Assembly: GCF_024436035.1 (NCBI RefSeq)
Contig: NZ_JANFNG010000034.1
Span: 1 to 64,000, forward strand
Direction of reading: 5' to 3'
Length of the DNA: 64,000 nt
From: Streptomyces humicola
GTDB lineage: Bacteria > Actinomycetota > Actinomycetes > Streptomycetales > Streptomycetaceae
This document shows positions 38,568 to 61,454 of the stretch, in pieces; position 1 is the first letter of the stretch, and every line of letters begins with the position of its first letter. A model generated the notes under the pieces. That model did not search any database. It saw only the letters and a program-made list of their open reading frames with translations, and was not told where the DNA came from. The position numbers and the translations under genes are program-made.

Positions 38568-39920
38568 GGTGTCAGACCGTGCCCCTGCTGGTCGGCCGGA
38601 AGGCCCGACTGCTGATGGGATGGCGTGCCCGCCGGGGCTGTGGCGGCGTGAGTACTGGATCCATTAGGGCGCGAGCTGTGTCTTCCGCTGGGCCACGCGC
38701 ACGTGTACGTCGAGAGGTTGGAGAAGCGGGTGCTGTTCGTCGGCGACGACTGGGCCGAAGATCACCATGATGTCGAGGTCCAGGACGGTTCGGGCCGCAG
38801 GCTCGGGACCGCCCGACTGATGGAGGGCATCGAAGGGATCGCGAAGCTGCACGCTCTGGTCGCCCGGCACGGCGGGGAGGACCTGGAGCCGGGGCAGGTG
38901 GTGGTCGGGATCGAGACCGACCGCGGCTCGTGGGTGCAGGCCCTGCTCGCGGCCGGCTACCAGGTCTACGCGGTCAACCCGCGCCAGGCGGCCCGGTTCA
39001 AGGAACGCTACGCAACCTCCGGTGCCAAGAGCGACAAGGGCGACGCGCACGCTCTCGCAGACATGGTCCGCATCGACCGTGATCAGTTGCGGCCGATCGC
39101 CGGGGACAGCGAGCAGGCCCAGGCCGTCAAGGTCGTCGCCCGCGCCCACCAGACCCTGATCTGGGAACGCACCCGCACCTTCCAGCGGCTGCGGAACACG
39201 CTGCGCGAGTACTTCCCCGGCGCCCTGACCGCATACGCCAGCCTGGAGCTGACCAGCACCGACGCCCTGGAGCCGCTGGTCAAGGCCCCCACACCCGAGC
39301 GGGCGGCGAAGCTGACGAAGAAACAGATCACCGCCGTTCTGGCCCGGCACGACGTCGCGACCCCGGTGGCAGCCGCCTGCGCCGCCGCAGCAACCGCGCA
39401 CGCCCGGCTGCTGATCGCCCTCAACGAGCAGATAGACACGTTGGAGGCTGAGGTGAAGGCACATTTTCGAGCGCACCCGGACGCTGAGATCTACCTGTCG
39501 ATGCCCGGCATCGGCGAGATCGTCGGGGCCCGGGTGCTCGCCGAGTTCGGGGACACCCCACCCGCTACGCGTCCGCCAAGGCACGGAAGAACTACGCCGG
39601 CACCAGCCCGATCACCCGGGCCTCCGGCAAGAGCCACACCGTCCAGGCCCGCTTCGTCCGCAACAACCGCCTCGCCGACGCGCTGCAGCGCCAGGCGTTC
39701 TGCGCCCTGCAGAACTCACCCGGAGTCCGCCGCTACTACGACAAGCAACGCGCCCGCGACCTCGACTACAACCCCGCCCTCCGCCAGGTCGGCAACCGAC
39801 TCGTCGGCATCCTCCACGGGTGCCTCAAGACCCGCACCCGCTACGACGAAGCCACCGCCTGGGCCCACCACGCCAACCTCGCCACAGCTTGACACCCGAC
39901 GCCATGGGATGTCTGACACC
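38568..39920 (+). mobile_element. IS110-family element, ends tentative
   Basis: The block contains a frameshifted IS110 transposase gene. GGTGTCAGAC at 38568-38577 and its reverse complement GTCTGACACC at 39911-39920 lie 1.35 kb apart, a normal IS110 length, and may be short subterminal inverted repeats. IS110 elements often lack clear terminal repeats, so the true ends may differ by some tens of bases. Confidence 0.55.
38730..39892 (+). pseudogene. IS110-family transposase, frameshifted
   Basis: This is a DEDD transposase of the IS110 group. It starts at the GTG at 38730, with GGAG 6 bases upstream and the usual VLFVGDDWAEDHHDVEV beginning. The DEDD domain continues with VVVGIETDRG and SDKGDAHALADMVR. 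At about 39554, within the Transposase_20 helix-hairpin-helix region after SMPGIGEIVGARVLAEFGD, one base appears to be missing. The correct continuation (TRYASAKARKNYAGTSPIT and on to AHHANLATA, stop 39890-39892) is found in the next frame. The unshifted frame runs on as nonsense. Real inactivation is most likely; sequencing error in the C-run is possible. Confidence 0.9.
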
Positions 39921-40041
39921 GATAGCAATGTGGGCCTGTCTCACCGTCAACTGCGGAGCTGGGGTATCACCTGGGTTCTGTCACGCCGACGAAGCGCGTA
40001 ACGTCCTCAGTGAGGCGACTCGCAGGAACGGAGCCCGGGTT

Positions 40042-41247
40042 ATGACGGCATGGCAAGACCTCACTACCGGCGAGCGGGTGAAGTCTTTGCGAGGCTCAGA
40101 CATGACGCAAGAGCAGCTCGCCGAATCCGCAGGCGTCAGTGTCGGCACCGTTCGGAAGTTGGAACAGGGCGGCACCTTGTCGTTGCCGTTCCTGCTCAAG
40201 ATCGCAGGTGCCCTCGGGACGGACGTTTCTACGATCCTCGGCCAGCAGTCACCGCGCCGGGGCATGGACCGTGACGAACGCTCTGCCGTGCGCGCCATGT
40301 CGGCGGCCGTCCACGGCTCGGCGATGGGCGACATCGACCACGTCGAACCCGGGCCACTGGACGGCTTGCAAGCAGCTGCTCGCCGCGCGGACACCCTGCT
40401 GTGGGTCAGTGACTACCCTGAGCTGGGAGCCGTGCTGTCTCGCCTGCTGCCTGAGGCCCGCGCCGTGTACGACGCGAGCACCGGTGAGGAGCGCAGTGCC
40501 GCCGCCGGCGTGCTCGCCGATGCCTACCAGACCGCCGCGTATGCGGCGAACCTTCTGGGGCAGCGGGACCTGTCTCGCGCGGCGTTGAACTACGGCCGGA
40601 CCACTGCCCTCTCTGTCGGTGACGACCTGCGGGCCGCGCATCTGGCGTCCACCGTCGCATGGGTGAGCCTGCGCGACGGGCAGACCAAGTACGGCGTCCA
40701 GGTCGCCGCGAAGGCCGCCGCCGCGACCGAACCCCGCATGTCCGAGACCGACCCCGACCTCCTCAGCGTCTATGGCCAGTTGGTCACCAACGCCGCCGTA
40801 GCGGCTTCCCGCGGCGGGGCCAGCCCCGACACGGCCCGGGATTGGCTCAGCCAGGCGCACGCCGTTGCCGCCCGTATCGGCCGCGAGCACGCCCGTGGCA
40901 AGCAGAATCAGCCCTTCGGTCCCGCGTACGCCGCCACGCAGGCCATGTCGGTGGCTATCGCACTGGGCGACACTGCGCGAGCGCTACGGCTGGCAGAGAC
41001 CACCACGCTGCCGGACGACATGCCGCTATCCACCCGCGCCCGCTGGCGCCTCGACGTGGCCCTACTGCGCACGCAAACGCGGCAATGGGATACGGCAGCG
41101 GATGAGCTGGAAGAGGTGTGCATGATGGCCCCGGCATGGGTGCGGCATCAGGCGCTGCCTGGAGTGGTCGCGGCCAAGATTGCCGATTACAACGTGTCCC
41201 GGGTCCGGCGGATCGCCGCCATGGCCAGGGTGCCACTCGGTGTCTGA
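40042..41247 (+). CDS. XRE-family regulator with TPR-like sensor domain
   Basis: The product is 401 residues with an N-terminal helix-turn-helix (LRGSDMTQEQLAESAGVSVG, about 15-36, then TVRKLEQGG). Over 300 residues of Ala-rich paired helices follow, typical of TPR-type sensor domains in Streptomyces transcription regulators. The ATG at 40042 is preceded by GGAG with good spacing. It lies 150 bp after the IS110 gene, which may have separated it from former neighbours, and shortly before a string of tiny overlapping genes it may regulate. Ligand and targets are unknown. Confidence 0.85.
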   Translation: MTAWQDLTTGERVKSLRGSDMTQEQLAESAGVSVGTVRKLEQGGTLSLPFLLKIAGALGTDVSTILGQQSPRRGMDRDERSAVRAMSAAVHGSAMGDIDHVEPGPLDGLQAAARRADTLLWVSDYPELGAVLSRLLPEARAVYDASTGEERSAAAGVLADAYQTAAYAANLLGQRDLSRAALNYGRTTALSVGDDLRAAHLASTVAWVSLRDGQTKYGVQVAAKAAAATEPRMSETDPDLLSVYGQLVTNAAVAASRGGASPDTARDWLSQAHAVAARIGREHARGKQNQPFGPAYAATQAMSVAIALGDTARALRLAETTTLPDDMPLSTRARWRLDVALLRTQTRQWDTAADELEEVCMMAPAWVRHQALPGVVAAKIADYNVSRVRRIAAMARVPLGV

Positions 41248-42906: not shown

Positions 42907-43211
42907 ACTGAGAGAGGACCAGACCGATGCCACGGGCAGACATCCGAGGACCGCCCCATCGTCCGATCCGCACTGCGGGGCGATGGGTCAGTTTCGGTCA
43001 TCTGTGATGAGGACCGAGCTTGCGGCGCGCACCGCCGAGAAGGATGAGGCCCTGGCCCTGGCGTAGTACCGGAACTGCGGTGTCCGCGCATTCGACTGGC
43101 CGGGCGATGGGCAGCCGGATGCGGGGATCCCGCACTCCCCGCCGCGCGCCCAGATGCATCGGCGGCGCGCCATGTACGTCCGTAACGTCCCTACGATTCA
43201 TGGGAGTTGCC
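42907..43211 (+). promoter_or_regulatory. upstream region of lanthipeptide operon
   Basis: This 305-bp interval without a gene precedes the precursor gene and should carry the operon promoter. The ribosome site GGGAG lies 5 bases before the ATG. I could not pick out a confident -35/-10 pair. Confidence 0.35.
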
Positions 43212-43394
43212 ATGAAACGAAGCACCGATCCGAGCACCACGCAGGTCCGCCCGCAGACGCCGCAGTCGACGACGTCCGACGGCTTCGAGCTGGACGTCAC
43301 CCTGCTGGAAGTGTCCGACGCTGCCAGCCTCACCAACCTGACTGACGACGGCTGCGGCGAGACCTGCGGCGCCTGCACCACCAACGTGGCCTGA
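43212..43394 (+). CDS. lanA: FxLD-type class I lanthipeptide precursor
   Basis: This is a 60-residue precursor peptide. The leader (about 1-38) contains the motif that names the family, FELDV at residues 25-29, where the dehydratase is expected to bind. The core, roughly after residue 38, is ASLTNLTDDGCGETCGACTT plus NVA. It offers Cys at 48, 52 and 55 and several Thr (41, 44, 51, 56, 57) and a Ser (39) for lanthionine and methyllanthionine rings. Asp46-Gly47 is a plausible site for Asp to isoAsp conversion by the methyltransferase encoded downstream. The ATG is preceded by GGGAG. No protease or exporter gene is adjacent, so leader removal must use a distant enzyme. Confidence 0.92.
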   Translation: MKRSTDPSTTQVRPQTPQSTTSDGFELDVTLLEVSDAASLTNLTDDGCGETCGACTTNVA

Positions 43395-43480
43395 CCCGAG
43401 GCGCACGTCATCCCGGGCCGGTGTCTTCGCGCTGCGGGCCGCGAGGGCACCGGCCGCCCGCCTGGACCACGGAGGTTGTG

Positions 43481-46400
43481 ATGGCTTCGAGCACCGCGTT
43501 CCGCGCCGGTAAGACCGCTCTCGTCCGTGCGGTCGCCCGACCGGAGCTTCCCGTTTCACCGTGCCCCGACCTCGACGACCCTTCCCCTCGCGGCGCAGCT
43601 GCACGGCTCGCGTGGCTGCGGGAGGTGTGGTCCGAGGAGGACGTTGCCGAGGCGCTGCAACACGCCAGCGCTGCCCTGGCCTCCCAGGTGCGTGTCTTGT
43701 GCTCATCCGGCACCCCGGCCGAGCGTGATGTGCGCCGCGCGGTCGCCTCCGTGGCCCGCTATGTGTTGCGAGCCGAGCACCGGGCGACTCCGTTCGGCCT
43801 GTTCGCCGGCGTGACCTCAGCCACCTTCGGACCACGAGCGGGCTCGACATGGGGCTTGGATCACGTGGTCATCGGCAGGGCGAGCGCGGAGTGGCTGACG
43901 GCTGTTGTCGAGCGGCTGGAGTCGTGCCCCGGACTGCTGGAGCGTCTTTTGGTGGTCGTCAACAACGCCGTCGCACGACGTGGTGATCGGCTCATCGTGC
44001 CGTACACCTGCGAGCCCCGAAGTGGCCGGAGTCGTGCGGTCGAGACATCCATCGGCCTGACGGAGCCGGTGCGGGCGGTCCTGGATGCGGCCGGGGCACC
44101 GATCCGCGCTGGTGTTCTCGCTGACAAGCTTGCTGCGGACTTCCCCACAGCAGGGTTGGATAAGGCGCATCGGCTGGTGCAGGAGTTGATCCGGTACCAG
44201 GTGCTGATCACCAATCTGCACGCGCCGAGCACTGACACCGACGCCCTGGGCTACCTGGTCGACCAGCTCGACGCCGTGGACGCCGGCACCGTGGCTCCGG
44301 CCGCTGATACGATCCGCAACCTGCACTTCGTGCACAACAATTTGCGTGAGTGCGGCATCCGCAGTAGCCGGGACCGCATCACCGCACGGATGCAGGCTCT
44401 GGTCCCGGGCCTTCGCCGCCACCCCCTCGCTCTCGACCTGCGTCTGGACGCCCGCGTCGAGCTGCCCGAGGAGATCGCCCGGGAGATCGAGCGTGTCGCC
44501 TTGGTCCTGACCTGGGTCAGCGCCCTCCCGTACGGAACGGCGGCGTGGAAGGCGTATCAGCGGCGGTTTTACGAGCGGTATGGCATCGGCACGATGGTGC
44601 CGCTCAAGGAGGTCGTCGCGGACAGCGGTACCGGTCTGCCTGACGGGTATCCGGGCGCCCCGGCCGACGGGCGCCGCCCCCGGCTCTCCGAACGGGACGA
44701 CAGCTTGGTGCGCCTCGCGCAGGCCGCCGTCCTCGATGGCCGCGACGAGGTGGTCCTGACCGACGAGTTGATCGCCGCGATGGACGTGGGGCCCGAGCAC
44801 CCAAGGGTGCCGCCCCACCTGGAGGTCGGTGTCCGGGTGCACGCCTCCAGCGCTGAGGAGCTTGACCGCGGGCGGTTCCGGCTGGAGGTCGTGAGCGTGT
44901 CCCGCGGCGTCGGAGTCACCACGGGCCGGTTCCTCAGCGTGCTGGCCCCCAAGGACCGAGAACGTCTGGCCGCGGAGCTGGCCGACCTGCCGACCGCGGA
45001 TGCAGGCACCGTTCCCGCTCAGTTGTCCTTCCCGCCGCTGCTGTCCAGGAGCGCCCATGTCGCGCGCGCCCCGCAGGTCCTGGCCAGCGTGATCAGTGTG
45101 CAGGAGCACCGCGCCGACCCAAGCGGGGATGTGCTCACGCCTGACGATCTCGCGGTGGCTTGCGACGGTCGCCGCATGTATCTGGCCGCACCCCAGCGCG
45201 GACACCGGATCGAGGCCGTGGGGATGCACGCGCTGAACCTCAAGGAGCACACCCCGCCGCTGGTGCGGTTCCTCACCGAGCTGTCCCGCGCTCAGTGCGC
45301 GCAAGTCACGCTGTTCGACTGGGGCGCCGCAAACGCGATGCCGTTCCTGCCCCGACTGCGCTACGGACGCACAGTCCTGGCTCCCGCACGGTGGCGGCTG
45401 GAAGCGCCGGAGCTGCCCGGCCGCGACCGCCCCCGGGCCGAGTGGGAGACGGCTCTCCGCGAGTGGCGGAGCCGGCGGCGGATGCCGCAGCGGGTCTACC
45501 TGGCCGAGGACGACCGCCGCCTCCTCCTCGACCTCGACCAGGCCGGACACCGAACCTTGCTGCGCCAGCACCTGAACCGCGCCCGCCTGGTAGTTCTCGT
45601 CGAAGCCCCGGAAGTTGACGCGTACGGCTGGTGCGATGGCCGTGCGCATGAGGTCGTGGTACCGCTGGAGGCGACGCGGCCACCGGGGTGGCCAGCCCTG
45701 CCGGCCCCCGCGCCGGCCCGCACCTTTTCTCCGGCGCAGATCCAGTCTCCGGGCGTCTCGCCGGTGTTGCTGGCTACTTTGTACGGCGACCTGCGCCGCC
45801 AGGACACCCTGCTCACCCAGCATCTCCCAGACCTGCTGGATCGACTCGGCGGTCCGCCGTGGTGGTTCATCCGCTTCCGCGACCCCCACCAGCACTTGCG
45901 GGTGCGCATCTCATTGCCCGACCTCGATGCCTTCGCCGAGACCGCCCGATCGGTCAGCACGTGGGCCGACGAGCTGCGCGCCGCCGGATTGCTGTCGGAT
46001 CTGCGTTTTCCCACCTCGTACCAAGAGATGGGCCGTTGGGGCTCCGGCGCCGCCTGGGACGCCGCCGAGGAAGTGTTCCGCGCGGACTCGCGCGCCGTCG
46101 TCGCTCAGCTCTCCCAGCCCCAGCGCCCGCACCAGCGTGCGCTGGTGGCCGCGCACTCCATCGCCATCGCCACGGCGTTCCTCGGCAGTACCGAGGCCGG
46201 GATGCGCTGGCTGATCGACCACATTCCGCCCACCGCGCCCGCACCGGTGCCGCGCCCGGAATTCGCCGAGACCGTACGGCTCGCAGATCCGTCCAACGAC
46301 TGGGCGGCATTGCGCACCGTTCCCGCAGGGCAGACCATCGTGGAGGCGTGGGCCGGTCGCGACGCGGCGCTCGCCGCCTACCGGCCGCACCTCCCCGGCT

Positions 46401-46555
46401 CGCACACCCAGGGCATCGCCCTGGACGACGTCCTCTCATCGCTGCTGCACGTCCATTTCGTACGGCACATCGCGGTCGACTTCCCCGAGGAAGCAGTCTG
46501 CCTCTACCTCACGCGCGCCACCGCCCTGGCCTGGATGTCCCGGAGGGCACGGTGA
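43481..46555 (+). CDS. lanB: lantibiotic dehydratase LanB, full length
   Basis: The enzyme is 1024 residues and dehydrates Ser/Thr of the precursor to Dha/Dhb using glutamyl-tRNA. The N-terminal glutamylation domain is recognisable by RYVLRAEHRATPFGLFAGV (about 88-106), typical of Lant_dehydr_N. The C-terminal elimination domain (SpaB_C) starts near residue 760 with SPVLLATLYGDLRRQDTLLT and contains PPWWFIRFRDPHQHLRVRI and FPTSYQEMGRWG. Both halves are fused in one chain, as in classic NisB. The ATG has GGAGG upstream. The stop overlaps lanC by 4 bp (GTGA). All conserved blocks appear intact. Confidence 0.93.
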   Translation: MASSTAFRAGKTALVRAVARPELPVSPCPDLDDPSPRGAAARLAWLREVWSEEDVAEALQHASAALASQVRVLCSSGTPAERDVRRAVASVARYVLRAEHRATPFGLFAGVTSATFGPRAGSTWGLDHVVIGRASAEWLTAVVERLESCPGLLERLLVVVNNAVARRGDRLIVPYTCEPRSGRSRAVETSIGLTEPVRAVLDAAGAPIRAGVLADKLAADFPTAGLDKAHRLVQELIRYQVLITNLHAPSTDTDALGYLVDQLDAVDAGTVAPAADTIRNLHFVHNNLRECGIRSSRDRITARMQALVPGLRRHPLALDLRLDARVELPEEIAREIERVALVLTWVSALPYGTAAWKAYQRRFYERYGIGTMVPLKEVVADSGTGLPDGYPGAPADGRRPRLSERDDSLVRLAQAAVLDGRDEVVLTDELIAAMDVGPEHPRVPPHLEVGVRVHASSAEELDRGRFRLEVVSVSRGVGVTTGRFLSVLAPKDRERLAAELADLPTADAGTVPAQLSFPPLLSRSAHVARAPQVLASVISVQEHRADPSGDVLTPDDLAVACDGRRMYLAAPQRGHRIEAVGMHALNLKEHTPPLVRFLTELSRAQCAQVTLFDWGAANAMPFLPRLRYGRTVLAPARWRLEAPELPGRDRPRAEWETALREWRSRRRMPQRVYLAEDDRRLLLDLDQAGHRTLLRQHLNRARLVVLVEAPEVDAYGWCDGRAHEVVVPLEATRPPGWPALPAPAPARTFSPAQIQSPGVSPVLLATLYGDLRRQDTLLTQHLPDLLDRLGGPPWWFIRFRDPHQHLRVRISLPDLDAFAETARSVSTWADELRAAGLLSDLRFPTSYQEMGRWGSGAAWDAAEEVFRADSRAVVAQLSQPQRPHQRALVAAHSIAIATAFLGSTEAGMRWLIDHIPPTAPAPVPRPEFAETVRLADPSNDWAALRTVPAGQTIVEAWAGRDAALAAYRPHLPGSHTQGIALDDVLSSLLHVHFVRHIAVDFPEEAVCLYLTRATALAWMSRRAR

Positions 46556-47826
46556 CCCACCCGCTCGCGCTCAAGGTGGCGGACGCGGTCGCAGACCTCC
46601 TGGCCGACCCCGACACCGCCCCGGTGAACCCTCGCACGACAATCACTCACCGGCAGCAACTCGCATACGGGCCACCGGGGATCGCCCTGCTGCACATCGA
46701 GCGCGCCGCATCCGGCATCGGGCCGTGGCAGCGCGCCCACGACTGGCTCGCCGTCGCTGCCCGGCAGCCGTTCACCAGCGGAGACGACAGCCACCCCTTC
46801 TACGGGGCCCCCGGCCTCGCACACACCGTGGCCTGCGCAGCCGAGCACCTGCCCGGCCCGTACCAGCGCGCCCTGGACACCCTCGATGCGCAGATCGCCA
46901 CCGACATCCGCCGGCGCCTCGGCGCCGCGCACCGCCGCCTCGACGCCAAACTCCTCCCGCAGCTGGCGGAGTTTGACGCGATCCGCGGGCTCACCGGCTA
47001 CGGCGCCTATCTCCTGCATCGCAACCCCGGCAGCGATGCCGTGCGGACCATCCTCGACTACTGCGTCCGCCTCACCGAACCGATCACCGATTGCGGCGAC
47101 GTCCTGCCGGGGTGGTGGACAGCGAGCGGACCCTCGGGCCGACCGGACGAGAAGTTCCCCGGCGGGCACGCCAACAACGGTGTCGCCCATGGCATCGCAT
47201 CGGTCCTCGCGCTGCTGGCCCTGGCCGCCCGGCACGGCACCGTCGTCGACCGCCACCACGACGCCGTGCGCACCATCCTGGCGTGGCAGGACCGCTGGCG
47301 CCTCGACACCGACCGCGGACCGACCTGGCCGTACTGGGTCACCCGCGCCGAACTTCGCGCGGGACGGCTCGCTCCTTGCGCGCCGCGGCGGCCGTCGTGG
47401 TGCTACGGCACCGCGGGCCTCGCCCGGGCCCGGCAACTCGCCGCCCTGGCCCTGGGCGATGTTCGGCGCCAGATCGAGGCGGAGAACGCGCTGACCTCCG
47501 CACTCACCGATCCACTACAGCTCAAGGCCACCACTGACAACGGCCTGTGTCACGGCACCGCGGGCCTCGCGCACGTCGCCGCCCGGATGGCCGCTGACGC
47601 CCACCCCTCAACCGCCAGAGCGCTTCGCGCCACGATCCCGGCACTCCTGACTGCTATATACCCGCCAGGCACCGACCCGCGGGAGGCCGCCCTGACGATG
47701 GTCCAAGACGAGGAAGCCGGGCCCGGATTCCTCAACGGTGCCGCGGGCATCGCCCTGGCGCTCCAGACACCCGCCACCGCCGTACCGCCCCGCTCAGCGT
47801 GGGACGCCTGCCTGCTCATTGCCTGA
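46552..47826 (+). CDS. lanC: lanthionine cyclase LanC
   Basis: The product is 424 residues with the double alpha-barrel pattern of LanC enzymes. Repeated Gly motifs include FYGAPGLAHTVACAAEHL, KFPGGHANNGVAHGIASVLA and PGFLNGAAGIALALQ. The zinc site is present: Cys in SWCYGTAGLA (about 284) and Cys-His in GLCHGTAGLAHV (about 333-334). It catalyses Michael addition of Cys thiols to dehydrated residues, forming the thioether rings. The GTG start overlaps the lanB stop by 4 bp and has GGAGGG upstream. Function should be complete. Confidence 0.93.
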   Translation: MTHPLALKVADAVADLLADPDTAPVNPRTTITHRQQLAYGPPGIALLHIERAASGIGPWQRAHDWLAVAARQPFTSGDDSHPFYGAPGLAHTVACAAEHLPGPYQRALDTLDAQIATDIRRRLGAAHRRLDAKLLPQLAEFDAIRGLTGYGAYLLHRNPGSDAVRTILDYCVRLTEPITDCGDVLPGWWTASGPSGRPDEKFPGGHANNGVAHGIASVLALLALAARHGTVVDRHHDAVRTILAWQDRWRLDTDRGPTWPYWVTRAELRAGRLAPCAPRRPSWCYGTAGLARARQLAALALGDVRRQIEAENALTSALTDPLQLKATTDNGLCHGTAGLAHVAARMAADAHPSTARALRATIPALLTAIYPPGTDPREAALTMVQDEEAGPGFLNGAAGIALALQTPATAVPPRSAWDACLLIA

Positions 47827-47850
47827 CCGTCGCCGACCGAAGGACCTGTC

Positions 47851-49932
47851 ATGCCCACGGACTGGCACCAGCACAACATCACCTTCGCCGACCGCGAGAC
47901 CGGCCACCGCGTCATCACCGAACGCCTCGGCCCTGCCCTCCTCGCGGCTGAGGACTCCGGGCAACTCACCGGCTGGTGGTTCATGAACAAGCAGCCCTGG
48001 CCCTTGCGCTACCGCGCCGCCAAGCCGTCCCCACTGATTGAGTCACTGCTCACAGATCTCGTCGGCCAAGGCGCCGTCCACTCGTGGCTGCCCGGCATCT
48101 ACGAACCGGAGACCACCGCGTTCGGCGGCCCCAAGGCCATGGACGCCGCCCACGACCTGTTCCACCAGGACAGCCGCCACCTGCTCACCTACCGGCCCGG
48201 CCCGGGCCACCTGGGCCGCAGGGAGACCGCCGTTCTCCTGATCAGCGCCATGATGTGGTCGGCTGGCCTGGACTGGTTCGAGCAGGGCGATGTCTGGGCG
48301 AAGGTTGCCGAACTGCGCCCGGCCACGACCGAACCGCTCGCCCCGGAGACGGCCAGTGCTCAGGTCCCGGCCATGCGCAAGCTGATGACCACCGACGCCC
48401 ACAGTCTGTGCCGTCCGAACGGTCCGCTCGATGGGCACGCCGAGTGGGTGACCGCTTTCGAGCGGACAGGCGCCACCCTCGCTCACCTCGCCACCAGAGG
48501 CGGCCTCACCCGCGGCCTACGAGCCGTCATCACCCATCACGTGATCTTCCACGCCAACCGCGCAGGTCTCCACCGGGACGACCAGCACGCCATGTCCCAC
48601 ATCGCACGAGAGGTAGTCATGGGATCGAGTGACAACACCGCGTCTCCCAGTCAGGCCACGGCCGAGGCCGATAGCGTCAACGTGGTGAACACCGACATGC
48701 TCGCCACCCCCGAGGCCGACGCGCAACGGCTCCGCAACGCCCTGGTCGACTCGATCCGCGAATCCGGGTACGCCCGCACGGCCACTGTCGAGACCGCGCT
48801 GCGCACCGTGCCCCGCCACCTGTTCGTACCCGACGCGCCGCTCGAAGAGGCCTACGCCGACACGCCGGTCAACATCAAGTACGACACCGACGGCACGTCG
48901 ATCTCCTGCGCCTCCCAGCCCGGAGTCGTCGCCCTCATGCTGGACCAACTGGAGGCGCGGCCTGGTGAACGCATTCTCGAACTCGGCGCAGGCACTGGTT
49001 ACAACGCGGCCCTGCTCGCCTGCTTGGTCGGTGAAACCGGTCACGTCACCACCATCGACGTCGATGACGACCTCGTCGAAGGAGCCCGCGCACACCTCGC
49101 CACAGCCGGGTTCACCAATGTCGAGGCCCTGACCCGCGATGGGGCTGTCGGCCACGCCGAGGGCGCACCGTACGACCGGATCATCGCCACCGTCGGCTCA
49201 CACGGTGTACCGCACGCCTGGATGCAGCAACTCGCCCCCGGCGGGCGGCTCGTGGTCCCCCAGCGCCTCAAGGGCAGCGTGTCCCGCTCCATCGCCTACG
49301 AGCAGCACGACGGCCGCTGGATGAGCGTCAGCAGCAAGATGAACACCTTCATGCCGCTACGAAAAGGCATTGCCGACGACGACCGCCGCGTCATCCCGCT
49401 CAGCACGGACGGCACCGTACGGCTCCAGGCCCCCGCCGGGCAGCACATCGACACCGACGCCTTGGCCGGAGTCCTGGACCAGCCGCGCACCGAGGAGTGG
49501 ACCGGCATGATGGTCCGCGCCATGGAGTCGCCTGAGTGGATGGAGCTGTTCGTCACCTGCTGCCTGCCCAGCGGTCTGATCCGGATGCTGTTCCCGAAGG
49601 AAGTCAAGGGCACCCTCCTTACCGACGACCCCTACCCCTCCTCCGCCGCGTCCGTCGACAAGGGGGCTGTCACCTACCTCGCCCGCCGCCTGTCAGAGAA
49701 GAAGACCCCCGAGGGCGGCAAGCTCTGGGAATTCGGCGTCATCGGCCATGGGCCGGGCAGCGACGAGTTGACCGCGAAGGTCGCCGACGCGATCCGCACC
49801 TGGGACCGCGACTTCCGCGGGCGCGAAGCCTCCTTCGAGATCCAGCCGCTCGACGCCCCCGCGATCGAGCAGCAGCCCGGTCTCTTCGCCATCGACACCC
49901 CGCTGAACCGCATCGTCGTCGATTGGCAGTGA
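47851..49932 (+). CDS. SpaB_C-like domain fused to FxLD-system methyltransferase
   Basis: This is a 693-residue two-part protein. Residues 1-260 resemble the thiopeptide-type SpaB_C domain (DWHQHNITFADRETGHRVIT, then LFHQDSRHLLTYRPGPGHLG). The remainder is a protein-isoaspartate O-methyltransferase-like enzyme with SAM motif LELGAGTGYNAA (about 375-386) and AGGRLVVP-type motif APGGRLVVPQR, extended by 150 residues found in the FxLD-system methyltransferases. LanS/OlvSA-type relatives methylate a core Asp so that it rearranges through a succinimide to isoAsp; this role is inferred. The added SpaB_C domain duplicates one already in LanB and may help bind the leader. It is 24 bp after lanC and followed by a strong hairpin. 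Confidence 0.9.
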   Translation: MPTDWHQHNITFADRETGHRVITERLGPALLAAEDSGQLTGWWFMNKQPWPLRYRAAKPSPLIESLLTDLVGQGAVHSWLPGIYEPETTAFGGPKAMDAAHDLFHQDSRHLLTYRPGPGHLGRRETAVLLISAMMWSAGLDWFEQGDVWAKVAELRPATTEPLAPETASAQVPAMRKLMTTDAHSLCRPNGPLDGHAEWVTAFERTGATLAHLATRGGLTRGLRAVITHHVIFHANRAGLHRDDQHAMSHIAREVVMGSSDNTASPSQATAEADSVNVVNTDMLATPEADAQRLRNALVDSIRESGYARTATVETALRTVPRHLFVPDAPLEEAYADTPVNIKYDTDGTSISCASQPGVVALMLDQLEARPGERILELGAGTGYNAALLACLVGETGHVTTIDVDDDLVEGARAHLATAGFTNVEALTRDGAVGHAEGAPYDRIIATVGSHGVPHAWMQQLAPGGRLVVPQRLKGSVSRSIAYEQHDGRWMSVSSKMNTFMPLRKGIADDDRRVIPLSTDGTVRLQAPAGQHIDTDALAGVLDQPRTEEWTGMMVRAMESPEWMELFVTCCLPSGLIRMLFPKEVKGTLLTDDPYPSSAASVDKGAVTYLARRLSEKKTPEGGKLWEFGVIGHGPGSDELTAKVADAIRTWDRDFRGREASFEIQPLDAPAIEQQPGLFAIDTPLNRIVVDWQ

Positions 49933-49943
49933 CGCCCCGAGTA

Positions 49944-49975
49944 CGGTGCCCGTCGCCGAGCGTCGACGGGCACCG
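49944..49975 (+). terminator. perfect 12-bp hairpin ending lanthipeptide operon
   Basis: CGGTGCCCGTCG and CGACGGGCACCG pair perfectly around an 8-base loop, 12 bp after the methyltransferase stop. This should terminate or attenuate the operon before the downstream helical-repeat gene. Confidence 0.75.
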
Positions 49976-50013
49976 CTGTCTTCACGCCTCCGTTCTTGCC
50001 TCCTGGGAGACCC

Positions 50014-51105
50014 ATGGACCCGCACGGCCTCATAGCCCAGCGTTTTCCGCTCGTCGCCCGGTTCCGGCCCGCATGCCTGCCGCTGCCCGAGCGCGTGGGC
50101 GCGCTCGTCGACCTCGCGGACACCGCAACACGAAAAGCCGACCAGGGGCTAGCCTCGGCGGTCTTCAACCAGGCCGCGCTGATCGCCTCCGACGTGGGCG
50201 TTCCCGATCTGGCCCGCGAGATGTGCCACCAGCACGCCGCCGCCTACCTCCACGCCTGCCCACTGCCCGGCATGTCCGTGATCCGCGCCCTCGAGCCCGT
50301 CGTCAACCTCGCCCGCTTGCAGATCCGCGCCGGTCGCGCCGACGACGGCCGCCAGCGCCTCCTCGCCCTGTACGAAGCCGTCGACCAGGGCACAGCCGCT
50401 CAGTTCGAGGACGTCACCGTGCCCGCAGACCTCACCGCGTCTCCGGAAGATCGGCACGAGGTCCGCGCGTGGCTGTGGCGGGTCCTCCTCGCCGACGGCA
50501 CACGCACCTTCACCATCGCCGGACGCTGGAACGAGGCCCTGGCGCACATCGAAGCCCATCGCGGTGTGGGTAAACGGATGCTCGACGGTCGCCAAGTCGC
50601 CGTCCTCTCAACCCTCACCACAGGCGACACGGCGGGCGCTGCGGCCCTGCTCGCGGACACGGCGCCCGGCGATCCATGGGAGCAGGCCGTCACGGCATGC
50701 CTGACCGCATTGTGCCGCCGTGACGCCGGGCAACTGACCGATGCCCACGTGAACGACCTGGTGAATACCTTCCATGAGTGGAAGGCCGAGCGTGGCATGA
50801 CCGTTTTCGATATCCGGCTCGGCCTGACCACACTGGACGTCATCGGCATTGCTGATAACCCGGCGGCGCACCGCATCGTCGAAGACCTGGTTCGCCGGAC
50901 AACCGAAGCCCGTGACGGATACGTGGCCCGCGAGATCCTGGCGCATCCGCTGTGCTCCGCTCTCATCACAGGCCAACAGACACACGACTGCAGCGACCTG
51001 ATACGCACCTGCGCTCTCGGATCGCGTTCTCTCCCCCCGCGTTTGCAGAACGATCTCACCATCGCGCTGCGCACGAGCGACAAGGTGGTCCGGGAGAGTC
51101 TTTGA
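50014..51105 (+). CDS. TPR-like helical protein linked to lanthipeptide cluster
   Basis: The product is 363 residues, almost entirely paired helices (LVDLADTATRKADQGLASAV, LVNLARLQIRAGRADDGRQR, LIRTCALGSRSLPPRLQNDL), with no helix-turn-helix, signal or membrane segment. Such proteins recur next to Streptomyces RiPP and signalling genes and may be adaptors or regulators. The ATG at 50014 has GGGAG upstream. It starts 39 bp after the operon hairpin, so it may be expressed at a lower level by read-through. I assign no biochemical role. Confidence 0.7.
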   Translation: MDPHGLIAQRFPLVARFRPACLPLPERVGALVDLADTATRKADQGLASAVFNQAALIASDVGVPDLAREMCHQHAAAYLHACPLPGMSVIRALEPVVNLARLQIRAGRADDGRQRLLALYEAVDQGTAAQFEDVTVPADLTASPEDRHEVRAWLWRVLLADGTRTFTIAGRWNEALAHIEAHRGVGKRMLDGRQVAVLSTLTTGDTAGAAALLADTAPGDPWEQAVTACLTALCRRDAGQLTDAHVNDLVNTFHEWKAERGMTVFDIRLGLTTLDVIGIADNPAAHRIVEDLVRRTTEARDGYVAREILAHPLCSALITGQQTHDCSDLIRTCALGSRSLPPRLQNDLTIALRTSDKVVRESL

Positions 51106-55758: not shown

Positions 55759-55836
55759 CCCCTGCCCTGGAGCGGCCTTCGCGGGCGACTGCCTGGTATG
55801 CGGAACGATCGTCCTAATGTCCTGTGGGGAATTGAC

Positions 55837-56616
55837 GTGGGTATCTCCTTCTCTGCTTCGGCTTCTACCTCTTCACCGTCGTCACGGTCTGTGCTGTCAG
55901 GTTCGGGCGCTACTTTCACCGCTTCTGGGTCCGGCCCTGATGGGGGCGGGCCGCGTGGTGCGCCGGGGCGGCTGCCGGCAGGTCGGGTACGGCGGCGGCC
56001 TGGGTTGGTGTGGGCGGGCATTGGCGTGGTGCTCGTCTGCTCGGTCGGCTTCACGACGGTGCTGGCACAGGCAGGGCGGACGGTGCCGGTGCTGGAAGTG
56101 GCCCGCCCGGTTCCGGCCGGGAGCGTGGTCACGGCTGGTGATGTGCGGGTGGTGCGGCTGGGCGTGCACGATGCGGGCGGCGAGGTCGTCCGCAAAGCAC
56201 GGGAAGACTCGGCGCTCCGCCGGGTAGCCGTCGTGCCGCTCGTCCCAGGGGAGCTCTTGTCCCCGGGGCAGGTCGGTGGCCGGGCGGGGTTTCCGCCCGC
56301 GGGTAAGGCGCTGGTGCCGTTCGCGGTCGAGCCGGGCGGAATTCCGGCGGGCCTTGAGGCCGGCCAGCGCGTCGCGATCCTGCCCGGGTCCTCCGACACC
56401 GGTGGTACTGAGCCTTCGCCTACCTCGCCACCGGACGGTTCCACACCGGCCTCGGTGGTGGGGACGGTCATGAGCGTCACGGCGGCTTCCGCCGACGGCG
56501 GGTCGGCGGGGTCAGTGGTGACGGTGCTGTTGGACACGGCTGCCGCGAGCCGGGCGGCGCAGATTGCCCGGCCGCATCTGGTGGTGCTCAGCCCGACGGG
56601 CCGGGAGCTCCCGTAA
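55837..56616 (+). CDS. SAF-domain CpaB/RcpC-like pilus protein
   Basis: The product is 259 residues from the GTG at 55837 (GGGGA 6 bases upstream); an ATG at 55798 is possible. A low-complexity head and Arg cluster precede one membrane helix (LVWAGIGVVLVCSVGFTTVL), followed by the SAF domain (VLEVARPVPAGSVVTAGDVR) found in CpaB/FlgA proteins. In Gram-negative Tad systems CpaB is a periplasmic assembly factor; here it would sit on the outer membrane face. The last base of its stop is the first base of the next start. Confidence 0.85.
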   Translation: MGISFSASASTSSPSSRSVLSGSGATFTASGSGPDGGGPRGAPGRLPAGRVRRRPGLVWAGIGVVLVCSVGFTTVLAQAGRTVPVLEVARPVPAGSVVTAGDVRVVRLGVHDAGGEVVRKAREDSALRRVAVVPLVPGELLSPGQVGGRAGFPPAGKALVPFAVEPGGIPAGLEAGQRVAILPGSSDTGGTEPSPTSPPDGSTPASVVGTVMSVTAASADGGSAGSVVTVLLDTAAASRAAQIARPHLVVLSPTGRELP

Positions 56617-57446
56617 TGGGCGGGGCGCTGGTCGTGATCGGGTCGGTGAAGGGCTCGCCGGGGTGTACGACCCTGGCGTTGGCATTGGCGACGTGCTGGC
56701 CGAGAGGGGAACGACTTCCCGCGCCGCTGGTGGTGGAGGCGGACCCCGGCGGAGGTGATGTGGCAGCCCGGTTCGGGCTGGCGGAGTCACCGGGACTGGT
56801 GAGCCTGGCTGCTGCGGCACGGCGTCCGGCGTCACCACAGGTGCTCAGTGAATGCGTGCAAGTACTGCCTGGCGACCTGCATGTGATCGTGGGTCCGACT
56901 GGGGCCCAGCAGGCGGCTGCGGCGGTGGGTCTGTTCGCCGGGCAGGGGCCGGGGCTGCTGCGGGCCGGGATGGGCACCGCCGGTTCGGTACTTGTTGATG
57001 TGGGGCGTTTCCAGCCGCAGACGGTGGGGTTGGTGGCTGCGGCGGACCGGCTCCTGCTGGTGACTCGTGGCGAGGCGGACGCCTTGGCGCACGCTTCGGG
57101 GAAGGTCGAGGAGTACCACGGCGCGGGCTGTGATGTGGAGCTGGTGGTGGTCGGGCCGAGCCCCTACCCGGTGGCGGAGATCAGCAGCGTGCTGGGGGTG
57201 GAGCGCGTGCACCTGGTGCCATGGGAGGAGAAGACCGCCCGGGTCTTGCGCGGGCGTGGTGCCGTGCCTGCCCGGCGGTGGCGCAGCTCGCCCCTGGTAC
57301 GTGACGCCACCGCGATGGCCCTCCACCTCATGCCACCCGTCGTCACGCGGCGCCCCGGCCATAACTCGGCTGTGCACGACGCTGTCCCCGCCCCGGTGGC
57401 GCAGACCGGCGGTCAGCCGTTGGCCGAGGCGGGTGAGCGAACGTGA
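56616..57446 (+). CDS. CpaE/ParA-like ATPase of Tad locus
   Basis: The product is 276 residues with a P-loop of the MinD/ParA type (VIGSVKGSPGCTTLALALAT, about 7-26) and the switch-type PLVVEADPGGGDVAARFG. The Walker A is a deviant KGSPGCTT, as in CpaE-like proteins. Later strands LVDVGRF and LLLVTRGEADAL follow. CpaE proteins position the pilus apparatus. The start overlaps the previous stop by one base and the stop overlaps tadA by 4 bp. Confidence 0.85.
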   Translation: MGGALVVIGSVKGSPGCTTLALALATCWPRGERLPAPLVVEADPGGGDVAARFGLAESPGLVSLAAAARRPASPQVLSECVQVLPGDLHVIVGPTGAQQAAAAVGLFAGQGPGLLRAGMGTAGSVLVDVGRFQPQTVGLVAAADRLLLVTRGEADALAHASGKVEEYHGAGCDVELVVVGPSPYPVAEISSVLGVERVHLVPWEEKTARVLRGRGAVPARRWRSSPLVRDATAMALHLMPPVVTRRPGHNSAVHDAVPAPVAQTGGQPLAEAGERT

Positions 57447-58795
57447 GCAACCGCATCGACCATGTCTCCCCGTCGCTATCGCTGTCGATGGAAAGGGAGC
57501 GTCACCTGATCGAGACGCTGCGGGACCACGTGGCGGGACGGATGGCCGCCTACGCGCAGGCCAGGCAGGAGGCGGGGCTGCCGCCGGAGGATGCCGGGCA
57601 GCGCCGACAGGTTACGCGTCGTCTGCTGGCCGAGGGACTGGACGCCCACGCACAAGACCAACTCGCCGCCGGAAAGCCGACACTGGATACAGACGCGGAG
57701 GCGAGGATCGAGCAAGCGGTGCTGGGGGCGTTGTCCGGCCTGGGGCCGCTGGAGGCCTTGCTGGCGGATAAGCGGGTGGAAAACATCGCGGTCAACGGCG
57801 CCGATACAGTCTGGGTGCGGCATGCGGACGGCAGCAAGCACCGCCTCGCCCCGATCGCCGCGTCGGATGAGGAACTGGTGGAGCTGGTGCGGCAGATCGC
57901 CGCCCGCACCGGGCTGGAGGAACGCCGATTCGACCGCGCGGTTCCGAGGTTGAACATGTGCCTGCCGGACGGCTCCCGCCTGTTCGCCGTGATGTCGGTG
58001 ACCGGCCGGGTGTCGCTGTCGATCCGCCGCCACCGCTACCGCGCCGCCACCCTCGACGACCTGGTGACGCTCGAGGTGTGTGATGAGGCGATGGCGCAAT
58101 TCCTGGGCGCTCTGGTGCGCTCGCGTCGCAACCTGCTCATCGGCGGGGGCACCAACGTCGGCAAGACCACCGTCCTGCGCGCCCTCGCCTCGGCGATCCC
58201 GCCCGCCGAGCGGTTGGTGACGATCGAGGACACCTTCGAACTCGGCCTGGACGCTGACCCGGTGGCGCATCCGGACGTGGTGGCGATGCAGGCCAGAGAG
58301 GCCAACATCGAGGGCGAGGGGGCGATCGACCAGGCGGAGCTGGTGCGGTGGGGGCTGCGGATGTCTCCGGACCGGGTGATCGTCGGGGAGATCCGCGGGG
58401 CGGAGGTGGTGCCGATGTGCAACGCCATGTCCCAGGGCAACGACGGCTCTCTGTCCACGATTCACGCCTCCACCTCCCGTGGGGTGTTCACCAAGCTCGC
58501 CGCCTACGCAGCCCAGGCCCCGGAGCGGCTGTCGCTGGAGGCCACCAACCTGCTTGTGGCCTCGGCGGTGCACTTCGTCATCCACCTCGCCTGGGACACC
58601 AGCGGCCGGCGGACCATCGGCTCCATCCGGGAGATCATCGACGCCGACGGGGCCCAGGTGGTCTCCAACGAGGTCTACCGCCCTGGCCCCGACGGCCGGG
58701 CGGCACCCGCAGCCCCGTTGCGCACCGAAACCCAGGCCGCCCTGCTGGCGGCGGGCCTGGACGAGCGGGCGCTTCCTGCCCAGAGGGGATGGTGA
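57443..58795 (+). CDS. tadA: TadA/CpaF secretion ATPase
   Basis: The product is 450 residues of the type II/IV secretion ATPase family. It has Walker A LLIGGGTNVGKTTVLRALA (about 231-249), Asp box ERLVTIEDTFELGL, Walker B-like SPDRVIVGEIRGAEVVPM and His box NDGSLSTIHASTSR. It powers assembly of the Tad pilus from the cytoplasmic face. The GTG start overlaps the CpaE-like gene by 4 bp. All four motifs are intact. Confidence 0.93.
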   Translation: MSNRIDHVSPSLSLSMERERHLIETLRDHVAGRMAAYAQARQEAGLPPEDAGQRRQVTRRLLAEGLDAHAQDQLAAGKPTLDTDAEARIEQAVLGALSGLGPLEALLADKRVENIAVNGADTVWVRHADGSKHRLAPIAASDEELVELVRQIAARTGLEERRFDRAVPRLNMCLPDGSRLFAVMSVTGRVSLSIRRHRYRAATLDDLVTLEVCDEAMAQFLGALVRSRRNLLIGGGTNVGKTTVLRALASAIPPAERLVTIEDTFELGLDADPVAHPDVVAMQAREANIEGEGAIDQAELVRWGLRMSPDRVIVGEIRGAEVVPMCNAMSQGNDGSLSTIHASTSRGVFTKLAAYAAQAPERLSLEATNLLVASAVHFVIHLAWDTSGRRTIGSIREIIDADGAQVVSNEVYRPGPDGRAAPAAPLRTETQAALLAAGLDERALPAQRGW

Positions 58796-58802
58796 CCCAC
58801 CG

Positions 58803-59747
58803 ATGGGCCTCACCCTCCTGACCGGGCTGATCCTGGGGTCCGCCACAGGCGGCGGCCTCTGGCTGATCGTCCACGGAATCACCCGGCAGCACGAGCCCGG
58901 CGAATCGCGGAACCCGCCATCCCGGACGGCACGTTGGCGTGAGCGACTGCGGTGCTTCGGCTGGCGGCGCGCGTCCGTCGTCGCACTGGTCGGGCTGCTG
59001 GCGGGGATGGTGACGGACTGGCCGGTCGCCAGTGTGCTCGCTGCCCTTGCTGCCGGAGTACTGCCGAAGCTTGTTGGGCCGGACCGGGCTGCGCGGGCGC
59101 GGACGGAGCGGTTGGAGGCGGTGGCGGTGTGGGCGGAAATGCTCCGCGACACGCTGTCAGCCGCGGCCGGGCTGGAACAAGCCATCCTGGCCACCGCGCC
59201 ACTCGCCCCGGATGCCCTGCGCCCGCACACCACCGCTCTCGCTACCCGGATCGAACGGGGTGAGGCACTGGGGGCCAGCCTGAGGCTGTTCGGGCAGGAG
59301 GTCGGCGACCCGGTGGTCGATGTGGTGGCGGTCGCATTGGTGATGGCGGCTGAGCGGCAGGCCCGTAAACTCGCCGACCTCCTCGGCTCGCTGGCGGCAT
59401 CGACGCGGGAGCAAGTGGCGATGCGGTTGAAGATCGACGCGAGTCGGGCGCGGGTGCGGACCTCGGTGCGGGTCGTCACCGGCACCACCCTGGGTATGGC
59501 CGCAGGGCTCATGGTGCTCAACCGCCCGTATCTGCAGCCGTTCTCCGGTCTGACCGGACAGCTGATGCTCACCGTGGTAGGCGCCCTGTTCGCGGCAGGG
59601 TTCGCGTGGCTGGCCAGGATCGCTCACATCCCCGACGAGCCCCGCATCCTCGCCCCATCTGCCCTGTCGGCACCGAGCAGCCAGGCGACCTCAACCGGCC
59701 CGGTGCCACCGCAGGTGGCCGCGAAAACGACGGAGGCCAGGACGTGA
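58803..59747 (+). CDS. tadB: TadB-like inner-membrane platform protein
   Basis: The product is 314 residues with N-terminal helices (LLTGLILGSATGGGLWLIVH and a pair near 60-85), a cytoplasmic T2SSF domain (AVWAEMLRDTLSAAAGLEQA; then DVVAVALVMAAERQARKLAD) and two C-terminal membrane helices. It forms the membrane platform with TadC. The ATG is 7 bp after tadA; the stop overlaps tadC by 4 bp (GTGA). Confidence 0.9.
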   Translation: MGLTLLTGLILGSATGGGLWLIVHGITRQHEPGESRNPPSRTARWRERLRCFGWRRASVVALVGLLAGMVTDWPVASVLAALAAGVLPKLVGPDRAARARTERLEAVAVWAEMLRDTLSAAAGLEQAILATAPLAPDALRPHTTALATRIERGEALGASLRLFGQEVGDPVVDVVAVALVMAAERQARKLADLLGSLAASTREQVAMRLKIDASRARVRTSVRVVTGTTLGMAAGLMVLNRPYLQPFSGLTGQLMLTVVGALFAAGFAWLARIAHIPDEPRILAPSALSAPSSQATSTGPVPPQVAAKTTEART

Positions 59748-60655
59748 TCGGGATCGTGCTCGGCGCGCTGTTCGGCGCCGGAGTGCTCGCTGCGGTGCTC
59801 GGCCTGCGCCCGCCCCGCCCTTCCCTGGCAACCACTTTGGCGGCCCTGCAGCGACCGAGCCCCCGCCATACGGCGTCGCCGACGGATGGCCTGGAGCAGC
59901 AGTCCGCCGGTGGGTGGGCGGCGCGGTGGGGGCGGGTCGGAGTGCCGCTGCTGCGCGCGGCCGGGCTTCCGACCGCAGCGTTGCGCGCGGACCTGGAGTT
60001 GGTCGGAATGAGCGTGGAGCGGTACCTGGCCGAGAAGGCCGCGGCCACAGCAGTCGGTCTGATCGCCCCACCGGTCGTGATCGCCCTGGTCGGCGCTGTC
60101 CTGCACGCAGGGGTCGGTTGGTGGCTGCCGGTATGGTCGGCGCTGTTCAGCGCTGTCGTGATGTTCCGAGCCCCCGATCTGGGGGTGCGCTCGCAGGCTG
60201 CGGCGCGGCGCTCGGAGTTGCGGCATGCGCTCGCCGTCTTCCTCGACCTGGTGGTCATCGCCCTGGCCGGCGGTGCCGGCGTGCAGCAGGCGCTGACGGA
60301 CGCGGCCGGAGCGGGGCACGGCTGGGCTGCAGCACGGATCCGGCGGGCTGTGGCCACCGCGAGCCTTGCCCGCACCGGCGTCTGGGACGAACTCGCCGCC
60401 CTCGGACAGGCCACCGGCGTCAGCGAGTTCTCGGAACTGGCTGCGACCGTAGGCCTGGCGGGTGCCGAAGGGGCGAAGGTCCGCCAGTCGCTTGCCACCA
60501 AGGCAGCGGCCATGCGCGCCCGCCGCCTGGCGGAGGCGGACGGTGCCGCCCAGGCCGCCACGGAGCGCATGTCCTTGCCGGTGGTGTTGATGTTCGCCGC
60601 CTTCCTGGTCTTCATCGGCTACCCGGCCATGATGCGCGTCCTGGTCTCCACGTAG
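59744..60655 (+). CDS. tadC: TadC-like inner-membrane platform protein
   Basis: The product is 303 residues with one N-terminal and two central membrane helices, a T2SSF domain (ALAVFLDLVVIALAGGAGVQ, then RQSLATKAAAMRARRLAEAD) and a final helix (LPVVLMFAAFLVFIGYPAMM). It pairs with TadB in the pilus platform. The GTG start overlaps tadB by 4 bp. The length is usual for the family. Confidence 0.9.
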   Translation: MIGIVLGALFGAGVLAAVLGLRPPRPSLATTLAALQRPSPRHTASPTDGLEQQSAGGWAARWGRVGVPLLRAAGLPTAALRADLELVGMSVERYLAEKAAATAVGLIAPPVVIALVGAVLHAGVGWWLPVWSALFSAVVMFRAPDLGVRSQAAARRSELRHALAVFLDLVVIALAGGAGVQQALTDAAGAGHGWAAARIRRAVATASLARTGVWDELAALGQATGVSEFSELAATVGLAGAEGAKVRQSLATKAAAMRARRLAEADGAAQAATERMSLPVVLMFAAFLVFIGYPAMMRVLVST

Positions 60656-60708
60656 ACCCCGGAGCCTCCTTCCGTTCTTTCCCCGCCCTGCTCATGAAAG
60701 AGATCGAG

Positions 60709-60909
60709 ATGGAACCAATGACCCATTACCTGCGGCACCAGGTACGGCGCCTGGTGGTCCGGTTGCGCGAGTGCGCCAGGGATGACGCGGGATACTCGAC
60801 CGAGACCGTGATCATCACCGCGCTGCTCGCCGCTTTGGCGATTGCGGCGGTCGCGGTCATCACGGCCAAGGTCATGGCCAAAGCCCGAGGGATCAACCTG
60901 GGGGGCTGA
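60709..60909 (+). CDS. Flp-pilin-like small protein
   Basis: The product is 66 residues from the ATG at 60709 (ATGs at 60694 and 60718 are possible). A basic head ends in DDAGYSTETVIITALLAALA, which carries a Gly and Glu in the arrangement of Flp/TadE prepilin processing sites, and is followed by one hydrophobic helix. It is a good candidate for the major pilin, with cleavage near the Gly. The Glu is at +4 if cut after Gly, not the usual +5, so the exact site is open. No prepilin peptidase gene is in the window. Confidence 0.75.
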   Translation: MEPMTHYLRHQVRRLVVRLRECARDDAGYSTETVIITALLAALAIAAVAVITAKVMAKARGINLGG

Positions 60910-60911
60910 CG

Positions 60912-61454
60912 ATGCCTCGTCTTGCCCTCCAGTTGCTCCGTCGACGCGGCGCCGCAGGAGCGCGCGCTTCCCGTTCCACGCGCAACGCGAGCGCTGTCGG
61001 CGGCTGGATGCACCGTAAGGCGGCGCATTGCCGTGTTCCTGCCCTTGCTCTGCTCCGGCGATGCCGCACCGCCGGCAAGGATGCTGGTGCGTCGGCAACG
61101 GAGACGGTCATCGTCACGCCATTGCTGCTGGTGTTGCTACTGCTGATCGTGCAATTCGCGCTCGTGGAGCATGCGCAGCACATCGCGCAGACGGCGGCTG
61201 CCCGGGCACTGGCGGCGGCTCGGGCGCAGGACAGCAACGCAGCCGCAGGCCGGGCCCAAGCGGCCCGCACGCTGACGGCGATTGGGCACGGCGTGCTGCT
61301 CGCGCCGACCGTCACCGTTCAGCGGAGCGCGCGCACCGCGAAGGCGGTCGTACGCGGGAGAGTGGAAGCGCTGATCCCGGGGTTGCAGCTTGATGTCTCC
61401 GCACACGCGGCAGGTGCCGTCGACCGGTGGACACCGGCTGGACGCCAAGGGTGA
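60912..61454 (+). CDS. TadE-like minor pilin
   Basis: The product is 180 residues with a long basic N-terminal extension (about 60 residues), then DAGASATETVIVTPLLLVLL, the TadE-type processing site (Gly, Glu at +5) and helix. A C-terminal extracytoplasmic domain of about 100 residues follows. It starts 2 bp after the pilin stop, overlaps the next gene by 4 bp and is a predicted minor pilin. Confidence 0.8.
   Translation: MPRLALQLLRRRGAAGARASRSTRNASAVGGWMHRKAAHCRVPALALLRRCRTAGKDAGASATETVIVTPLLLVLLLLIVQFALVEHAQHIAQTAAARALAAARAQDSNAAAGRAQAARTLTAIGHGVLLAPTVTVQRSARTAKAVVRGRVEALIPGLQLDVSAHAAGAVDRWTPAGRQG

Follow-up and report, generated by a model that had tools for sequence, protein, structure and literature searches.

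The window analyzed in this study, a stretch of 64,000 nucleotides of Streptomyces humicola, contains five open reading frames on the forward strand between positions 43212 and 51105. The first gene (43212 to 43394) encodes an FxLD lanthipeptide precursor, LanA, of 60 amino acids (MKRSTDPSTTQVRPQTPQSTTSDGFELDVTLLEVSDAASLTNLTDDGCGETCGACTTNVA) and is preceded by the sequence GGGAG at positions 43202 to 43206. The precursor scored 45.6 bits (cutoff, 30 bits) against TIGR04363 ("FxLD family lanthipeptide") and was aligned with 65 homologues. The recognition motif FELD, the first part of FELDV, is found at residues 25 to 28, and the core contains TDDGC at residues 44 to 48 and cysteines at positions 48, 52, and 55. 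An initial annotation of this DNA had correctly described these features, together with the Asp46-Gly47 pair and the flanking Thr residues.

The second gene encodes LanB. Its open reading frame opens with GTG at position 43421 and ends at 46555; the ATG at 43481, which is preceded by GGAGG at 43471 to 43475, is the likelier start as judged from the sequence. The protein (43481 to 46555, forward strand) consists of a tRNA-Glu-dependent glutamylation domain and a canonical anti-glutamyl-lyase domain (PF04738, E value of 1.7e-208; PF14028, E value of 1.3e-34). Its alignment with MibB, MadB, and NisB revealed that all residues equivalent to NisB R83, R87, R464, R784, R786, and R826 are retained, and the His of the lyase domain is located in the segment SLLHVHF. 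The gene overlaps by 4 bases with that of the zinc cyclase LanC (46552 to 47826, forward strand; PF05147, LANC_like, E value of 5.5e-39), which, in an alignment with NisC and MadC, retains the HG, WCYG, and CHG motifs with the catalytic His and the zinc ligands. A separate LanB, with the catalytic residues of both domains, and a separate LanC, with its own catalytic residues, are thus found beside a precursor with an FxLD leader, as is characteristic of class I lanthipeptide clusters.

The fourth gene (47851 to 49932, forward strand) starts 24 bases after LanC and encodes a fused protein of 693 residues. Residues 291 to 693 (48721 to 49929) form a protein L-(iso)aspartyl O-methyltransferase (PIMT) homologue with a C-terminal extension, of the PAMT/LanSA type. 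Residues 291 to 692 matched TIGR04364 with 446 bits (cutoff, 320 bits), and the match to the PCMT domain PF01135 (E value of 4.9e-45) ends at residue 504. Residues 1 to 256 (47851 to 48618) correspond to a syn-type glutamyl lyase similar to CoiSA(ED); residues 5 to 256 matched the lantibiotic dehydratase C-terminal domain TIGR03891 with an E value of 8.6e-48. The fifth gene (50014 to 51105, forward strand), which is preceded by GGGAG at 50005 to 50009, encodes a protein of 363 amino acids with a predicted TPR-like, alpha-superhelical fold, which is a probable CoiH homologue. Gene content, domain types, catalytic residues, and conservation were obtained directly, as was the predicted fold of the fifth protein. 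The initial annotation had considered the precursor, LanB, LanC, and PIMT-like enzyme to be intact, which is borne out by open frames in one direction and by matches above the cutoffs of TIGR04363 and TIGR04364, and its assignment to class I (FxLD) agrees with the family matches of all four named genes. However, these four genes had also been called a complete cluster, which misses both the syn-glutamyl-lyase domain that the methyltransferase carries at its N terminus and the fifth gene, so that the operon reaches position 51105.

A syn-type glutamyl lyase domain fused to the methyltransferase

The closest characterized counterpart is the coi cluster of Streptomyces coelicolor A3(2), which encodes CoiA1, CoiB, CoiC, CoiSA, and CoiH, as described in PMC9486935 and PMC9011353. 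Both clusters contain LanA, LanB, LanC, a protein of unknown function, and a fusion of a methyltransferase with a syn-glutamyl lyase; they differ in the number of precursors, since the window encodes one and coi three. The olv cluster of Streptomyces olivaceus (OlvA, OlvB, OlvC, and OlvSA; reviewed in PMC13001092) contains neither a fused glutamyl lyase nor CoiH, whereas the window methyltransferase does carry a lyase domain. In addition, the olv product has an extra N-terminal Lan ring (PMC13001092).

The fused lyase domain differs from canonical lyases: the equivalent of NisB R826 is Ala90, and the His at the H961 position is absent. Since canonical lyases require this Arg and this His, the domain might be a noncatalytic substrate-binding remnant, with LanB alone carrying out the eliminations as in olv-type chemistry and with a product containing DL/LL rings and no d-allo-L-MeLan. 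Several observations make this improbable. (i) The fused domain has Lys47 at a position where the LanB lyase domain has no Lys; the corresponding residue of CoiSA(ED), K46, was shown to be necessary in the experiments reported in PMC9011353. (ii) K47 is invariant in 30 relatives, and all other syn-type lyase domains of FxLD loci that were aligned have kept the Lys as well. (iii) The olv clusters described in PMC9486935 are those without the fused lyase and CoiH. Window LanB and the fused domain match the residue contrast published for CoiB and CoiSA (PMC9486935, PMC9011353), which points to a coi-type, syn-acting domain. A syn-type glutamyl lyase with the conserved Lys is likewise present in SptBb of the SapT pathway, according to PMC9011353; SptBb, however, is a stand-alone enzyme from another lanthipeptide pathway, that of the morphogenetic peptide SapT. 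Interpretations of the extra lyase domain as a dead remnant or as a [4+2] cyclase were also set aside, because its residues match those of the studied CoiSA/SptBb group. A sequence search of the methyltransferase against the PDB matched the PIMT half only and returned no match for the lyase half, and the model of the full protein had a pTM of 0.56; its domain arrangement is uncertain, and it was kept out of the argument.

Conservation of the precursor core and predicted ring pattern

Thr44, Asp46, Cys48, Thr51, Cys52, and Cys55 were invariant in the 65 aligned precursors. Position 57 was Thr in 64 sequences and Ser in a single one (locus L079), in which position 56 is Val, and position 50 was occupied by Ser, Thr, or Glu, with Glu50 in 11 of 65. 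S35, S39, and T41 were unconserved. The pN/pS ratio of the precursor core in this family was approximately 0.3. Among FxLD precursors from other loci, the pattern TxD[G/N/T]C was present in all 58 sequences tallied, and the last two Cys residues were spaced by 2, 3, 4, or 6 residues in the 54 for which the spacing was measurable. A comparison of the precursor with PDB sequences gave no match at an E value of 10, and hence no close product structure.

The order of Thr and Cys residues in the core is the same as in CoiA1, of which T43, C47, T50, C51, C55, and T57 correspond to T44, C48, T51, C52, C55, and T57 of the window, respectively. In mCoiA1, the rings reported are T43-C47, T50-C55, and, in the reverse direction, T57-C51 (PMC9486935). 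Two residues separate the last two Cys in the window and three in CoiA1; we infer that its last ring pair, which is one residue tighter, would form in the same way. The conservation of the core supports a product with three thioethers, of which 44-48 and 51-55 would run forward and 57-52 would be reversed. Because the only conserved Thr residues preceding the three cysteines are Thr44 and Thr51, a third ring should use Thr57 in reverse. The same scarcity of upstream donors would fit a product with only the T44-C48 and T51-C55 rings, in which Cys52 is free or engaged in a disulfide; we give little credence to this alternative, since position 57 is Thr or Ser in 65 of 65 precursors, including the one in which Ser57 follows Val56, and since its counterpart in CoiA1 closes onto Cys51 in the reverse direction, as reported in PMC9486935. 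In locus L079, with its Val56-Ser57 sequence, any third ring would have to take its donor from position 57. The three thioethers proposed initially are therefore plausible by homology with mCoiA1, although no donors had been named.

Asp46 had been proposed as the site of isoaspartate formation on account of the Asp-Gly pair. Judged by conservation, the predicted modification site is indeed the invariant Asp46 rather than Asp45, which is replaced by Asn in 4 of the 65 sequences. The Asp-Gly pair, however, is no marker of the site: the residue that follows Asp46 is Asn in 46 of the 65 precursors and Gly in the other 19, so that Gly is dispensable there. The presence of a PIMT homologue with a C-terminal extension of more than 100 amino acids and of the conserved Asp in TxDGC would place the product among the lanthimiditides (PAMT-modified lanthipeptides), and the conservation of the core supports isoAsp or aspartimide at Asp46. 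The expectation of isoAsp is drawn from OlvSA and other PAMTs rather than from CoiSA.

A fifth gene associated with the syn-type lyase domain

The fifth gene was present in 77 of 80 related loci, with a median identity of 70% and at a median distance of 88 bases 3' of the methyltransferase gene. No match above the cutoff was obtained in Pfam or NCBIfam, and the protein thus belongs to no curated family of these collections. Its AlphaFold2 model had a pLDDT of 93.8 and was almost entirely alpha-helical. Foldseek returned no match at an E value of 0.001, whereas VIA-align gave TPR proteins with a top Z score of 13.6, a value that is common among helical repeats. The alpha-superhelical TPR arrangement of the model is shared with Rap/NprR-type peptide sensors, namely, NprR (Z score of 13.2, rmsd of 7.1, 259 aligned residues) and Rap of pLS20 (Z score of 12.3, rmsd of 5.9, 249 aligned residues). 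This likeness is unspecific, since the unrelated TPR protein LGN is equally similar (Z score of 13.6) and identities are about 10%. The predicted fold is accordingly TPR-like and carries little information on function. An origin of the protein from the NsdA-family regulator that relatives carry upstream (see below) was considered and abandoned after BLASTP of one pair detected no similarity.

The protein is probably CoiH, as judged from its position and from locus L145, in which a homologue adjoins a three-precursor, coi-like cluster; a literature search on CoiH returned one mention and nothing further. To relate the gene to the lyase domain, 69 FxLD loci were inspected over 11 kb each. The fifth gene was found in 50 of 63 loci with a syn-lyase domain and in none of the 6 that lack one (Fisher P = 0.0002, with loci treated as independent despite shared ancestry). 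The link is not exclusive, because the presence of the gene is correlated with that of the methyltransferase as well (36 of 40 loci with and 14 of 29 without); it thus occurs in 14 FxLD loci with no detected methyltransferase. Furthermore, in five FxLD loci with no methyltransferase detected, one uninterrupted open reading frame comprises the lyase and the fifth-gene domain (L118, 5162 to 7234; L147, 4232 to 7441; L167 and L168, 4004 to 6610; L189, 4188 to 6347); L167 and L168, which have identical scores, may be near copies.

On the basis of this distribution and of the shared open reading frames, we propose that the fifth protein may be a partner dedicated to the syn-glutamyl lyase. As a TPR scaffold, it would present the glutamylated peptide or bind the product and thereby ensure that one Thr is eliminated syn and the others anti. 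We regard this role as possible rather than probable. In the experiments described in PMC9486935, three dehydrations of CoiA1 took place in E. coli with no need for CoiH, so that a required role in the lyase step is unsupported by that experiment. As a separate observation, four genomes with a match to the fifth gene and no FxLD precursor (G014, G017, G038, and G076) hold only fragments of it, which suggests decay following cluster loss.

Distribution and genomic context

FxLD precursors were detected in 51 of 150 related genomes. In a collection with one genome per species, 142 stretches encode a relative of the methyltransferase, and the best 80 of these 142, with 57 to 88% identity, were used as the related loci of this study. 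Among these best 80, window-type precursor, LanB, LanC, and methyltransferase genes were present in 64 (at least), 76, 78, and 80 loci, respectively, in the same order, and the arrangement A-B-C-SA-H is kept in relatives. The recurrence of the first four genes in this order indicates that the cluster is not a chance assembly. Plasmid records also carry methyltransferase relatives, which are annotated as fxlM.

The families that recur in the flanks of these 80 loci are (i) the five cluster genes themselves, (ii) in 40 loci, upstream of the cluster, a TPR regulator of the NsdA family, (iii) a gene that reads as methylmalonyl-CoA mutase, identified by eye, in 18, and (iv) mobile-element genes (DUF3631, DUF2637, and integrase), in approximately 13. 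The NsdA-family regulator is divergent and located some 2.5 kb upstream of the precursor (for example, L072, 3404 to 4768, reverse strand); no homologue was found beside the window cluster. In the approximately 13 relatives, L052, L046, L058, and L101 among them, DUF3631, DUF2637, HTH, and integrase genes lie downstream of the cluster and look like an actinomycete integrative element that adjoins or carries it.

The initial annotation had reported neither protease nor transporter, and indeed none is encoded locally; nor was one recognized among the recurring flank families of the 80 relatives, of which some small ones are unnamed. This absence looks like a family trait, which agrees with the coi and olv clusters, described as being without a protease in PMC9486935. 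Taken by itself, the lack of a local protease and transporter, together with an IS110-type transposase gene that ends approximately 3 kb upstream, could speak for a decaying cluster with no active product. Such a state is extremely unlikely, given that all five frames are open, the catalytic residues are retained, the pN/pS ratio of the core is low as given above, and the absence of both functions is common to the relatives.

Other features of the window were recorded. The IS110 family transposase gene (38703 to 40001, forward strand) matches Pfam in its DEDD part only and may have lost its 3' part. An HTH_3/XRE-type regulator (39820 to 41247, forward strand) overlaps its end, 2 kb upstream of the precursor, and has no counterpart in the loci of the relatives. 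Two open reading frames on opposite strands (27678 to 28529, forward; 29494 to 30153, reverse) share their first 40 residues (MKEGPPAQLGDVESPEQEEALL...) and thus suggest an inverted repeat. Behind the cluster (55798 to 62424, forward strand), SAF-domain, ParA-like, TadA-type ATPase, and TadE-like open reading frames form a Tad pilus set, in which ParA and TadE were assigned by eye.

Proposed biosynthesis and implications

Taken together, the data indicate, with a probability that we estimate at roughly 85%, that the operon directs coi-type class I lanthipeptide biosynthesis in the order A-B-C-SA-H. Its reactions, ring pattern, stereochemistry, and isoAsp are modeled on the characterized coi and olv homologues. 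A product of the coi type would contain three MeLan rings, each of a different stereochemistry. The pathway would comprise the following steps. (i) LanB would bind the FELD leader and glutamylate the core Thr residues. (ii) Glutamate elimination by the lyase domain of LanB itself would convert Thr44 and Thr51 to (Z)-Dhb, whereas that by the syn-lyase domain of SA would convert Thr57 to (E)-Dhb. (iii) LanC would close Thr44-Cys48, Thr51-Cys55, and, in the reverse direction, Cys52 onto Thr57. (iv) The methyltransferase domain would methylate Asp46 within the first ring, and the ester would convert to an aspartimide, the hydrolysis of which would yield mostly isoAsp. (v) The TPR-like fifth protein would most likely aid the syn-lyase step or bind the peptide. 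(vi) The leader would be removed and the product exported by host enzymes encoded elsewhere.

The cluster belongs to a widespread and already reconstituted kind. The view that FxLD products are scarcely characterized is outdated, since the coi and olv products have been reconstituted and their ring pattern and stereochemistry determined (PMC9486935, PMC9011353), the former product having been made in E. coli (PMC9486935). The coi and olv products are described in PMC9486935 as unseen in the native producer and with no known role. In the precursor of the window, Glu50 is of practical use, as cleavage by GluC should detach the first ring from the two that overlap.

In a published mining study, clusters that carry a PIMT and a conserved Asp were described as the class I group with the highest abundance in Actinobacteria, and the fusion of elimination domains with PIMT-type methyltransferases was noted (PMC7268733); a further study counted 1305 lanthipeptide clusters with such methyltransferases, mostly with the TxDGC motif (PMC10787088). 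The window cluster is one more, clearly readable member of this most abundant actinobacterial group. The link between the fifth gene and the syn-lyase is new here and suggests a specific role, amenable to experiment, for a protein whose function the coi papers did not settle. Finally, the near-invariance of the core among many species of Streptomyces is more in keeping with a single, fixed target or signal than with an arms race.
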